A stretch of DNA of 48,363 bases from a virus, in IMG/VR virus record IMGVR_UViG_3300015076_000002, positions 1 to 48,363 of that record; one strand, given 5' to 3'. The first letter of the stretch is position 1; each line of letters opens with the position of its first letter. The notes under the pieces are model-generated. The model had not been told where the DNA came from. It was given only the letters and a program-made list of their open reading frames with translations, and did no database searches. The position numbers were made by a program, and so were the translations under genes. Shown here piece after piece: positions 2,103-9,512 of this stretch.

Positions 2103-2148
2103 ACTTCAACTAGGCTCTTTCCTCTGGCGGGGAAACCTTACGATACAT

Positions 2149-5655: not shown

Positions 5656-6302
5656 ACCCTTACGAGCGTCCTGAGTTCGCCGCGTTCATGTCGGCAATCC
5701 GAGATGATCCCGGTGATGAGGCCAGCCGAGCCGCGTTGCAGGACTGGCTACTCGAACATGACGTGCCGGAGGCGATTGCTCAGCAAAGCCAATTTCTCCG
5801 TCTGTTCTTCACTTACGACATTTGGTCTTTCGGGAGCGGGAGCGGAATCGGGAGCGGAATCGGGAGCGGGAGCGGGATCGGGAGCGGGAGCGGGAGAGGG
5901 AGAGGGAGCGGGAGCGGGATCGGGATCGGGAGCGGGAGCGGGATCGGGAGCGGGAGCGGGATCGGGAGCGGGAGCGGGATTTCGGAACCCTACAGGGTCA
6001 CACACATGCGAATCGGACAATGCTACCTGGTCCACTGCGGCGATTGGCACACCTTCGTCGGCCGGGTGGTCGCGCAGGTCGGCCCCGGAACCTACGAACT
6101 GGAGTGCGTCTCCAAGATCGCTGAGACGAACAACGGTGACTGCTGGGGGCAATTGGCTGCTGGCGACAAGGCACTCCGCAAGGCTTGCACCTACGTTCAC
6201 ACGCCGCGCAACCCGGAAACGGGCCAATGGCTGAAGGCGGTTATCCCGCTTGTGATCGCGGCGTTCGAGTGGGTCGGAAAGCTCCCCCAAGAGGAGAAGT
6301 GA
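5652..6302 (+). CDS. TIGR02996-domain protein with Gly-Ser hexamer-repeat linker (216 aa)
   Basis: Residues 8-50 (FAAFMSAIRDDPGDEASRAA, QDWLLEHD) match the repeat-companion domain TIGR02996, which is expanded in Gemmata and some other large-genome bacteria. A Gly-Ser/Ile/Arg linker of about 50 residues follows, coded by a hexanucleotide repeat. The C-terminal ~100 residues (MRIGQCYLVHCGDWHTFVGRV) form a separate beta-rich domain; its first Met (6006) could be an internal start. The gene was probably acquired from the host. The function is unknown. Confidence 0.65.
   Translation: MNPYERPEFAAFMSAIRDDPGDEASRAALQDWLLEHDVPEAIAQQSQFLRLFFTYDIWSFGSGSGIGSGIGSGSGIGSGSGRGRGSGSGIGIGSGSGIGSGSGIGSGSGISEPYRVTHMRIGQCYLVHCGDWHTFVGRVVAQVGPGTYELECVSKIAETNNGDCWGQLAAGDKALRKACTYVHTPRNPETGQWLKAVIPLVIAAFEWVGKLPQEEK
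5832..5980 (+). repeat. Hexanucleotide GGGAGC/GGGATC repeat
   Basis: About 25 tandem copies of a six-base unit, mostly GGGAGC with GGGATC and GGAATC variants, sit in frame inside the TIGR02996 gene and code for alternating Gly-Ser and Gly-Ile. The unit length of six preserves the frame when copy number changes, so the linker can vary in length. All three forward frames are open through it (Gly-Ser, Glu-Arg and Gly-Ala/Ser-Gly types). Confidence 0.9.
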
Positions 6303-6303
6303 T

Positions 6304-6331
6304 TTGACTTCCCCCACTTCCCAGGTACTAT
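6304..6331 (+). promoter_or_regulatory. Sigma70-like promoter
   Basis: TTGACT (6304-6309) and TACTAT (6326-6331) are spaced by 16 bases and lie in the first real gap after the recombination operon. The predicted transcript would begin near 6338, exactly at the 5' strand of the structured leader. It is the best promoter match I could see in the window. Confidence 0.65.
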
Positions 6332-6337
6332 GAGCCT

Positions 6338-6432
6338 GTCTCCCGCACGAGACACCTCAACACAACCTGAACCAACGCCGCTACCCTGGCACTTCGCCGT
6401 GCGGGAGAACACACCGGGGTAGCGGCGCGGAG
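6338..6432 (+). promoter_or_regulatory. Pseudoknot-type 5' leader RNA
   Basis: Helix 1 pairs 6339-6349 (TCTCCCGCACG) with 6398-6408 (CGTGCGGGAGA), 11 bp. Helix 2 pairs 6376-6386 (CGCCGCTACCC) with 6417-6427 (GGGTAGCGGCG), 11 bp plus a possible wobble. The helices interleave (1-2-1-2), a pseudoknot topology. Local rivals exist: GTCTC/GAGAC (6338-6353) and GCAC/GTGC (6389-6402). Helix 2 ends two bases before the GGAG ribosome binding site (6429-6432) of the gene at 6439, so folding could hide or expose it. No known riboswitch class is recognised. Confidence 0.6.
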
Positions 6433-6438
6433 ATTCCA

Positions 6439-6642
6439 ATGACCGACCCGCACAGCAAACGCATGACTCTACGCGAGTACGTCTCCTGTCACGTCATGGC
6501 CCGGTTCGCGGCCCTCCCACTGAAACACATGCCAGTCTGCAAGCATCACAAGGCTCAAGAAGCGGTCTTGTACGCGGATGCCCTGATTGAAGCGCTCAAT
6601 ATGAATCCGAGCGAACTCGTTGGCGTGCCGTTGGAGGATTGA
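6439..6642 (+). CDS. Small phage protein, diverged relative of the 2223 gene (67 aa)
   Basis: The motif MTLREYVSCHVMARFAAL near the N-terminus and YADALIEAL later match the pattern of the gene at 2223-2474. The function is unknown. It is the first gene behind the promoter at 6304 and the structured leader, so any control by the leader acts first on it. GGAG at 6429 is its ribosome binding site. Confidence 0.6.
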   Translation: MTDPHSKRMTLREYVSCHVMARFAALPLKHMPVCKHHKAQEAVLYADALIEALNMNPSELVGVPLED

Positions 6643-6645
6643 CTC

Positions 6646-7470
6646 ATGAAAAGTGAAGACCTCAACCCGCCCGCCATTGTGAAGAAGCATGCCGAGGCGA
6701 CGGATGTGTTGAAGCGGCGCGTCAAGGAACTCAACGGCGACCTCAGACACGGAGAGCGGCTGAACGTCGGCCGGTTCATGGACATCGCCCGGATGCTCGG
6801 CGAAATCAAGGGGAGGTGCAAGGTCGGCGACTGGACGAAAGAGTTGGAAGAAATGGAAGTCAGTAAGCAAGACGCCTCTTGGATGCTTCGCGCCCTCAAG
6901 GTTCCTTCCGAACAGTTGGCCGAGTGCCAAACGATCACGGACCTGAAGGACAAAATTAAGACCTGCGAAGGAGGGTACGTCGCAAATGCCGACGTACCGG
7001 ACAAATCTGGTAGCAATCTCGCGGGCGAGAAGTGGCGTTGTGATCGCTGCGTCCGGCTAGGCTTGACCGGCGACGACTGCGCGACATGCAAGGAAGGACG
7101 TGCGGAACGCAGCGGAAGGCGTCGGCCCCCCAACGGAGGCCAGAACGAACCCGGCGAGGATTGGCAGGAAGACGTCGTTGTGACCATCGCGGAAGAGCCG
7201 GAGACTCCTGCCGCTCCGAAGCCGCCGAAGAACGGCCAGGTCATCATCGCCCCGGCCGCGCAGGTGGACATATGGTTCAAGGCCAGCGAGAACTCGATAG
7301 GCAGCATCATCCGGCAGTACGACGATCTAGTTCGCCCGCTGGGATTCCTAAACACGCCGGCCTACAACGGAGTACACCGCCGGCTGAACGAACTGCTTGT
7401 CGAACTCAAGGAGATTGAGTTACAAGCAAAGGGTCTAGTGAAAGCACCACGAAAGAAGGAGAACAAGTAA
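6646..7470 (+). CDS. Hypothetical protein with helical N-terminus and central zinc motif (274 aa)
   Basis: Residues 1-100 are helical and charged (KKHAEATDVLKRRVKELNG, FMDIARMLGEIKG, SKQDASWMLRALKV), a layout reminiscent of phage DUF3102-like or ParB-like helical proteins. A CDRC ... CATC zinc motif lies at about 128-148. A Pro-rich linker follows, then a coiled C-terminus ending KAPRKKENK. The ATG at 6646 follows TTGGAGG. Its stop overlaps the next start (TAATG). Function unassigned. Confidence 0.6.
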   Translation: MKSEDLNPPAIVKKHAEATDVLKRRVKELNGDLRHGERLNVGRFMDIARMLGEIKGRCKVGDWTKELEEMEVSKQDASWMLRALKVPSEQLAECQTITDLKDKIKTCEGGYVANADVPDKSGSNLAGEKWRCDRCVRLGLTGDDCATCKEGRAERSGRRRPPNGGQNEPGEDWQEDVVVTIAEEPETPAAPKPPKNGQVIIAPAAQVDIWFKASENSIGSIIRQYDDLVRPLGFLNTPAYNGVHRRLNELLVELKEIELQAKGLVKAPRKKENK

Positions 7471-7784: not shown

Positions 7785-7968
7785 AGCCGAGTTGCGGTCG
7801 ATTCGTGAGGTTGCCAGACGCAGCATCAACCCGCAGTGTCCCGGTTGCACGAACTGCCAGGACTGGAACTACATCGTCTCAGTGACAACGTGGTTGCTCG
7901 ACGGCGACTCCGAATTCGACCGCCTCGTCGAGACTTCGATTGCCAACCTCGCCGAAACCGGGAGATGA
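7774..7968 (+). CDS. Small hypothetical protein with Cys pair (64 aa)
   Basis: The start at 7774 follows GGAGAAAGCC inside the end of the previous gene. CPGCTNC (about residues 21-27) is the only clear feature and may bind zinc or be structural. The stop overlaps the helicase start (ATGA), which suggests coupled translation with the helicase. Confidence 0.5.
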   Translation: MKTEAELRSIREVARRSINPQCPGCTNCQDWNYIVSVTTWLLDGDSEFDRLVETSIANLAETGR

Positions 7969-9512
7969 TCTTGGAACGCTGGTTGCATCAGGAACGAGCC
8001 GTCGAAGCCGTCCACGAAGCGATCAGCCGTGGCGAGCGACGAATCTGCCTAACCTCACCAACAGGAGGCGGCAAGACCGTCATCGCCACGGACCTGATCC
8101 GTGACTGGCTCTCGGCGGACCTGAAAGTGATCCTCTACTCGAACCGGCGAATGCTGATCGAGCAGACAAGCCGGGTGATGCGCGAGGCCGGTTTGGTGCA
8201 TGGAGTCCGTGCAGCGGGCCACGACGAGACTGCGGAGAACCTGCAACTCTCCTCGATCCAGACCGAGGGGGCCAGAGTGGTACGCAGAGGGATGGGCCGA
8301 CTCTTCGAGGCATCACGAGTTCTCGTCGACGAGGCCCACCTTCTCAAGTCCACCGAGGCGGCAGGTATCCTCGCGCAGCACGTCGAGCAGGGAGCCTCGG
8401 TCGTCGGCCTGACCGCTACGCCTCTGGACATCGGCCACTTGTACGATCACCTGATCGTCGCCGGCACACTGACCGATCTAAGAGCGTGCGGCGCCGTTGT
8501 GATGGCCCGGCACTTCGGCTGCGACGAGCCGGACCTGAAGAGCATCAAGAAGATACCGACCGGGGAAGACATCCCGGAGAGTCAATTGAAGAAGGTATAC
8601 CCTTGCACCCAGGCGTTGTTCGGCCGCGTCCTCGGAGAGTTCCGCCGGTTGAACCCGGAGTGCAAGCCGAGCATCCTGTTCGCCTGCGGGGTCGATGAGT
8701 CGGTATGGTTCTGCGGCCAGTTCAACCGGGCCGGGATCACGGCCGCTCACATCGACGGCGACAATGTGTTGATCGGAGACAAGTTGTACCGCTCGTCGCC
8801 AGAAGCGCGGGCGGAAGTCTTAGGAGGCTCAAAAGATGGACGAATCAAAGTCGTCTGCAACCGATTCGTGCTACGAGAAGGTATTGATTGTCCCTGGCTG
8901 GCTCATGCTGTCTTTGCCACCGTCTTCGGAAGTCTACAGTCTTACCTACAAGCTGGAGGACGACTCCTCCGGGCTTACCCTGGAATTAACACTACAACCG
9001 TGCAAGACCACGGCGGGAATTGGTGGAGGCACGGCTCGCTGAACGCCGACCGAGAATGGAACCTCGCCTTCACCCCCGGCATCGTGAGCGGGCTGCGCGA
9101 GGACGCCTTGCGAGCCAAGAAGCTCTTCGAGCCGTTCCTTTGCCCACAGTGCAAGCAAGTCCTGATGAGCCGCCGCTGTCCGTGCGGCTTCGAGATCAAG
9201 AACTTCGTGCGGTCGCGCCCGGTGGTTCAGACAGACGGCACGCTCCGGGAGATGCGGGGCGAGATATTCAAGCCGCGGAGAGTCAGCAAGGCTCCGAACG
9301 GGCCAGCGAAGTGGAAGTCGATGTACTACCGCAGCAAGACCGACAAGGGGTCGCGGACGTTTCGGGCAGCTGCGGCCCTGTTCGCTCAGGAGAACAATTG
9401 GGGCTGGCCTGATCCCACCTGGCCCTTGATGCCGACGCAGCCGTTGGATTGGTTCCGGCTGGTTGCGTCGGTTCCAATGGAGGAGTTGACCCAATCAGAG
9501 ACGCTACCCTAA
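7965..9512 (+). CDS. SF2 DNA/RNA helicase (515 aa)
   Basis: This is a DEAD/DEAH-box-type ATP-dependent helicase. Walker A is SPTGGGKT (31-38), motif II is VDEAHLL (about 120), motif III LTATP (about 148), and motif VI the AGGRLLRAYPG stretch (about 330), so both RecA-like lobes are present. A C-terminal zinc element CPQCKQVLMSRRCPCGFE (about 392-409) is followed by about 100 residues with DNA-binding character. Likely roles are replication or recombination. The ATG at 7965 overlaps the upstream stop. Confidence 0.85.
   Translation: MILERWLHQERAVEAVHEAISRGERRICLTSPTGGGKTVIATDLIRDWLSADLKVILYSNRRMLIEQTSRVMREAGLVHGVRAAGHDETAENLQLSSIQTEGARVVRRGMGRLFEASRVLVDEAHLLKSTEAAGILAQHVEQGASVVGLTATPLDIGHLYDHLIVAGTLTDLRACGAVVMARHFGCDEPDLKSIKKIPTGEDIPESQLKKVYPCTQALFGRVLGEFRRLNPECKPSILFACGVDESVWFCGQFNRAGITAAHIDGDNVLIGDKLYRSSPEARAEVLGGSKDGRIKVVCNRFVLREGIDCPWLAHAVFATVFGSLQSYLQAGGRLLRAYPGINTTTVQDHGGNWWRHGSLNADREWNLAFTPGIVSGLREDALRAKKLFEPFLCPQCKQVLMSRRCPCGFEIKNFVRSRPVVQTDGTLREMRGEIFKPRRVSKAPNGPAKWKSMYYRSKTDKGSRTFRAAAALFAQENNWGWPDPTWPLMPTQPLDWFRLVASVPMEELTQSETLP
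9478..9493 (+). repeat. 16-bp direct repeat, copy 1 (ribosome-binding-site sequence)
   Basis: TGGAGGAGTTGACCCA occurs here at the very end of the helicase gene and again, identically, at 9780-9795, where it is the ribosome binding site and first base of the HNH gene. In copy 1 the position of the start codon is ATC rather than ATG. Confidence 0.85.

Follow-up and report, generated by a model that had tools for sequence, protein, structure and literature searches.

What is the function of two long RNA helices, interleaved with each other, that separate a phage promoter from the first ribosome-binding site of its operon? The window, by which we mean the whole stretch of DNA analysed here, is a virus contig of 48,363 bp, and the initial annotation had read this locus as a promoter-proximal pseudoknot acting as a cis-acting switch for the genes that begin at 6439. 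The promoter is as described there: read from the sequence, it is a sigma70-like promoter at 6304-6331 on the plus strand (TTGACT at 6304-6309, a 16-base spacer, TACTAT at 6326-6331), and it is the only match to a strict TTGAC-N16..18-TANNNT pattern in the 48-kb record. Placed from the -10 element, the predicted transcription start falls at about 6337-6338, and the main early transcript of the phage most likely has bases 6338-6432 as its 5′ leader. The leader lies between the gene for a YqaJ exonuclease, itself preceded by an ERF annealing protein gene, and a superfamily II helicase operon. Upstream is a match to TIGR02996, a family named for Gemmata obscuriglobus, which indicates a planctomycete-type host; the leader-bearing phages are uncultured and apparently of planctomycete type. 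Scanning genome contigs with the helicase turned up no planctomycete genome. The protein with the Gemmata-type TIGR02996 domain also contains a long in-frame GSGSGI-type repeat run (5820-5985).

Anatomy of the leader

Both proposed 11-bp helices are present, perfect and interleaved. In helix H1, TCTCCCGCACG (6339-6349), which begins at the predicted transcription start, pairs with CGTGCGGGAGA (6398-6408). In helix H2, CGCCGCTACCC (6376-6386) pairs with GGGTAGCGGCG (6417-6427), and H2 is longer than first described, extending to 14 bp (6376-6389 with 6414-6427) with one U.G pair. The two 5′ strands are separated by an A/C-rich loop 1 (6350-6375); loop 2 (CACTTCGC, 6390-6397), with a shared CAN(1-3)TC motif, leads into the 3′ strand of H1, and loop 3 (6409-6413) into that of H2. 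One base after H2 comes the Shine-Dalgarno (SD) sequence GGAG (6429-6432), followed by the ATG at 6439, all on the plus strand; no U-run follows H2 in this element (6339-6427). The helix order, 5′-H1-H2-H1′-H2′, is that of an H-type RNA pseudoknot, and we consider the interleaved structure near certain, its mechanism being a matter for the more conditional discussion below.

Two local hairpins had been proposed as rivals of the helices. The first, P0 (GUCUC-CCGCAC-GAGAC, 6338-6353), is real, competes with H1 and is included in the nested minimum free energy fold of the leader (-43.1 kcal/mol, z -4.3), whereas the second (GCAC/GUGC, 6389-6402) amounts to merely 4 bp. The estimated pseudoknot energy of the window element is -49 vs. 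-41.5 for the best nested fold, using a crude penalty in a home-made score that stops short of full pseudoknot thermodynamics. This advantage is not universal by the same crude score, the L045 leader and one of the L023 leaders (L023-4970) clearly failing and others coming out about even. That the knot forms in vivo, and the order in which its helices would fold, are inferences.

The initial annotation had judged this arrangement very unlikely to arise by chance, and simulation bears this out: none of 160 second-order Markov genomes equalled the stacking energy of the H1+H2 pair (-59.8). H1/H2 is the one pair of interleaved perfect stems of at least 9 bp within 120 nt in the whole window, with 0.39 such pairs expected per genome at this length and 0.02 at 10 bp or more.

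A second pseudoknot of the same architecture occurs at 2124-2204 on the plus strand, where it precedes an SD sequence and an ATG at 2223. Its H1 pairs CTGGCGGG with CCCGCCAG, and its H2, 13 bp with a G.U pair, CCCCCGGCGCG with CGCGCCGGGGG. By eye, a -10-like TAGGCT (2111-2116, plus strand) can be seen upstream with no good -35, and this may possibly be an activator-dependent early promoter. The 67-aa ORF at 6439 and the 83-aa ORF at 2223 looked like paralogues by eye, but BLASTP did not support this. Elsewhere in this early region, CTGGCGGGGAG recurs at 825-835 and 1845-1855 as the ribosome-binding region of early genes, with similar copies by eye near 1443 and 2580; CTGGCGGG serves in addition as the H1 5′ strand of the element at 2124. 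Inside an early gene, at 1659-1692, lies a 15-bp inverted repeat whose arms match perfectly around a loop of 4 bases (CATGCTGGACGAAGC / GCTTCGTCCAGCATG).

Relatives, covariation and position at the 5′ end

The initial annotation had suggested looking for the leader in related phages, and the same architecture was found in 23 tabulated leaders, including the two from the window (6339-6427 and 2124-2204) and two from L023. Relatives of the helicase and of YqaJ were fetched and scanned for interleaved helices lying after strict promoters. The helicase relatives gave 23 promoter-position matches below -40 kcal/mol of stacking energy, a few of them doubtful or duplicates, vs. none in 185 shuffles; the YqaJ relatives gave 6 of 631 below -36 vs. 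0 of 1893 shuffles, two of the six being the already known L023/L107 phage. Family membership is partly defined by the same score that found the members. Since these were picked by complementarity, the argument is carried by the shuffled controls and by close pairs of leaders rather than by the raw count of pairings.

The common order is promoter, H1 5′ strand, A/C-rich loop 1, H2 5′ strand, loop 2, H1 3′ strand, loop 3 and H2 3′ strand, followed in most of the 23 leaders by a U-run and an SD sequence; at least four T follow H2 in 14/23 (1.5 expected). H1 measures 8-15 bp and H2 6-14 bp, with helix sequences unrelated between members (23 distinct H1 and 22 distinct H2 in 23). The loop-2 motif CAN(1-3)TC is found in 15 of the 23 leaders, vs. 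a mean of 3.8 and a maximum of 10 in 2000 shuffles. The P0 hairpin is clear in only about half of the members (combined p about 0.01), and we therefore dropped it as a universal part. The initial annotation had held that homologues losing the helices would count against its proposal; some relatives of the neighbouring helicase do lack the leader, which makes it a facultative module, and the family itself stands.

Several candidates lie outside these statistics. L025 5670, found later, looks like a member and was left out of the 23. Among the helicase-scan matches, those in L054/L064, L089 and L095 have an incomplete architecture and were not taken as members, and a candidate in L220 was dropped as reading-frame-like sequence with no promoter match. 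Scans with a ParB trio (A3) and with a 104-aa protein (A2) added no member. A lax promoter-plus-pseudoknot scan returned mostly noise, and strict promoters together with shuffled controls were used in its place; an exact-helix DNA-pattern search of IMG/VR gave four chance matches, all in unrelated sequence. For the 67-aa and 274-aa proteins encoded after the leader, viral contigs yielded no direct homologue, and sequenced phages neither similar DNA nor the 274-aa protein.

Other 5′ structures were seen along the way. A long 19-bp imperfect stem with a large loop follows a strong promoter on the minus strands of L054 (6998-7113) and L064 (13437-13552), an architecture that differs from the knot and was set aside. 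After a further strong promoter in L206, the RNA opens with a hairpin near +1 that is near-perfect and about 16 bp long, with a start codon soon after; L211 too has a plain stable hairpin near +1 after another strong promoter, and the minus strand of L022 near 11268 holds a plain-hairpin counterpart of the knot, like that of L206. Plain +1 hairpins at other strong promoters in two phages suggest that 5′ structure itself matters.

Covariation, which the initial annotation had proposed as a check, was found in close pairs. The L033 and L142 leaders, 70% identical across their length, differ by at least five compensatory pair changes: three adjacent ones in H2 (TGC/GCA to CTA/TAG) and two in H1. 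The L052/L112 pair shows a single compensated difference, a G-C to C-G pair in H1. Compensatory changes thus occur in both helices, consistent with an H-type pseudoknot. At bridged non-Watson-Crick positions, GU outnumbers AC (12 vs. 3, in a search that itself allowed GU), an indication that the RNA of the plus strand is the form concerned.

The position of the knot is also constrained. In a scan from -130 to +260, 19 of 22 strong pseudoknots began between +0 and +15 of the predicted transcription start, while the shuffled control gave one match, at +80 to +99. In 16/23 members, no more than 4 nt separate the beginning of H1 from the predicted start; all starts in these counts are predictions from the -10 element.

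Downstream genes and possible functions

In the window, the leader is followed on the plus strand by a 67-aa ORF with no family match (6439-6642), a 274-aa ORF with no library match itself (6646-7470), homologous to an ORF of L009/L027 (28% over 152 aa), and, in the same operon, the superfamily II DNA helicase (7836-9512) used as the query for finding relatives. In L022, a DUF3102 protein takes the place of the 274-aa ORF. Across the family, the element precedes this 67-aa ORF, DUF3102, ParB/HTH-like or GroES-like genes, other small ORFs and one tRNA: in L023 (4971-5155), a predicted tRNA-Thr (CGT) begins 9 nt after H2 of the second element and is followed by a ParB-like gene. The element therefore belongs to the promoter and transcript and not to a gene, which argues against a gene-specific riboswitch. 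What survives of the initial proposal is a conserved, covarying, promoter-proximal pseudoknot before a ribosome-binding site; a switching role for the genes beginning at 6439 is not supported.

The structure is tied to the 5′ end, free in helix sequence and used whatever the gene, which is in keeping with a constitutive role exerted on the transcript that carries it. Our preferred reading, held tentatively and at rather less than even confidence, is a constitutive, cis-acting 5′-terminal lock that would shield the early phage mRNA from 5′-end-dependent decay. The 5′ end would be buried in H1, the other strand of which would sit inside the loop closed by H2, with H2 terminating at the ribosome-binding site. 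A paired and threaded 5′ end would offer no single-stranded foothold to decay of the RppH/RNase E or RNase J type, and the U-rich/SD region right after H2 would be left outside the knot for ribosomes. A helix of 11 bp or more should require a full turn of winding, which would be easy only with an end free to thread; the 5′ tail beyond H1 consists of a few bases and would be able to thread the H2 loop. Where present, P0 may hold back H1 so that H2 forms first. Since a 5′ end would likewise be protected by a simple hairpin, the knot and the shared loop-2 motif call for something more specific. The tRNA-Thr in L023 counts against the lock, as RNase P cleavage there would sever it from the downstream mRNA.

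The main rival to the lock is processive antitermination of the type mediated by HK022 put RNA, in which the nascent knot would bind RNA polymerase via loop 2 and promote read-through of the early operon; we consider it unlikely, though a serious contender. It would account for use at early promoters regardless of gene, for an element of about 90 nt starting at the 5′ end, and, better than the lock, for both the shared loop motif and the tRNA-preceding element, which could influence the genes behind the tRNA only by acting co-transcriptionally. Two elements per phage, as in the window and in L023, also recall putL and putR of HK022 (PMC9378689). However, neither the window nor any of 11 relatives has a strong intrinsic terminator close downstream, and the helices share no sequence. 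Moreover, putR is active 270 nt from its start, so the put mechanism does not demand the strict 5′-terminal position seen here.

Regulation by a switch or attenuator seems improbable to us. P0 or H2 would be set against H1, H2 with its U-run acting as a slow terminator or gating the SD, under protein or ligand control. Competition between P0 and H1 in about half of the members, the excess of T-runs after H2 and the proximity of H2 to the SD are all in keeping with such a device, but a U-run is missing from the window element, and the many different genes downstream suggest no common product or metabolite. H1 and H2 can also coexist, so that base pairing does not make them mutually exclusive. 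On average, SD accessibility hardly changes between states (mean unpaired 0.26 in the nested fold vs. 0.22 with both helices imposed), the SD becoming more masked with both helices imposed in L022 and L045.

The knot could also be a stable small RNA precursor or a trans-acting RNA of the immunity or antisense type, its helices drifting because self-pairing alone matters. A compact, stable RNA with its own promoter and, in many members, a terminator-like H2 with U-run would suit this role, which is nevertheless very unlikely: an SD and a start codon follow the element in nearly all members, and further targets of the helix strands in the window are at chance level (none for H1, one 2-mismatch site for H2). 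Less probable again is a DNA-level feature, with the interleaved inverted repeats serving as repressor operators or as part of a replication origin; the position within a replication/recombination module would fit, but the arms are 20-80 nt apart and unrelated in sequence, the flanking signals are strand-specific and mismatches are GU rather than AC. Chance inverted repeats, for which nothing speaks except that G+C-rich repeats are generally abundant (62% GC), are practically out of the question given the simulated genomes, and the reading was already refuted by the relatives, whose leaders at syntenic sites repeat the architecture.

Comparison with known RNAs

The initial annotation recognized no known riboswitch class in the leader, and Rfam 15 likewise gave 0 matches in the window; a search of nine relatives returned a tRNA only. 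The best local scores stayed below gathering (17.1 vs. 60 and 15.8 vs. 50). A full-text literature search of limited scope found no described planctomycete-phage leader pseudoknot. The nearest systems in function or form are the HK022 put RNA and the T4 gene 32 pseudoknot, each of which fails a defining feature. The put RNA is about 70 nt long and structured, occurs twice per genome at or near the start of early transcripts, and has its 5′ end paired from A3 (PMC9378689). Both put and the leader element lie at or near an early promoter's transcription start (predicted here) with any gene downstream. Put, however, consists of two consecutive stem-loops with a triplex and is conserved in sequence, whereas the element has two interleaved long helices of free sequence; the helices interleave in all 23 members, which were selected for this. 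A further defining trait of put is terminator read-through via the zinc-binding domain of RNAP beta′. Like ours, the T4-type gene 32 leader is a phage mRNA leader with an H-type pseudoknot ahead of the start codon (PMC3014915). That pseudoknot serves one gene, whose product gp32 binds it, and is placed 67 nt before the start codon, whereas the present element has longer helices, lies at the 5′ end, adjoins the SD and precedes many genes, varied in kind rather than encoding a single-stranded DNA-binding protein.

The 5′-terminal stabilising stem-loops of bacterial mRNAs of the ompA type are single hairpins with a paired 5′ end, in principle gene-independent. They share the paired 5′ end with our element but have neither the interleaved knot nor the shared loop motif. 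Pseudoknotted riboswitches of the preQ1 and SAM-II type have a conserved ligand-pocket sequence and control genes of one pathway; they resemble the element in placing a pseudoknot near the ribosome-binding site, but no conserved pocket is seen here, and the downstream genes are varied phage genes rather than those of one pathway.

The leader knot is a real and previously undescribed RNA device that, on our preferred reading, would shield the front end of the message. Whether it founds a new 5′-terminal RNA class we regard as an even call: this would be a self-threading knot of two long helices, free in sequence with a shared loop motif, exchangeable at phage early promoters and acting on polymerase or decay enzymes independently of the gene. 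Being conserved in shape and position and not in helix sequence, it is missed by ordinary covariance-model searches. Its strict 5′-terminal place offers a clean test of bacterial mRNA protection by a threaded 5′ end vs. conversion of RNA polymerase, and a use as a sequence-free leader part is conceivable. The main early promoters of these seemingly planctomycete-associated phages, a group whose gene control is almost unknown, are marked by the element.
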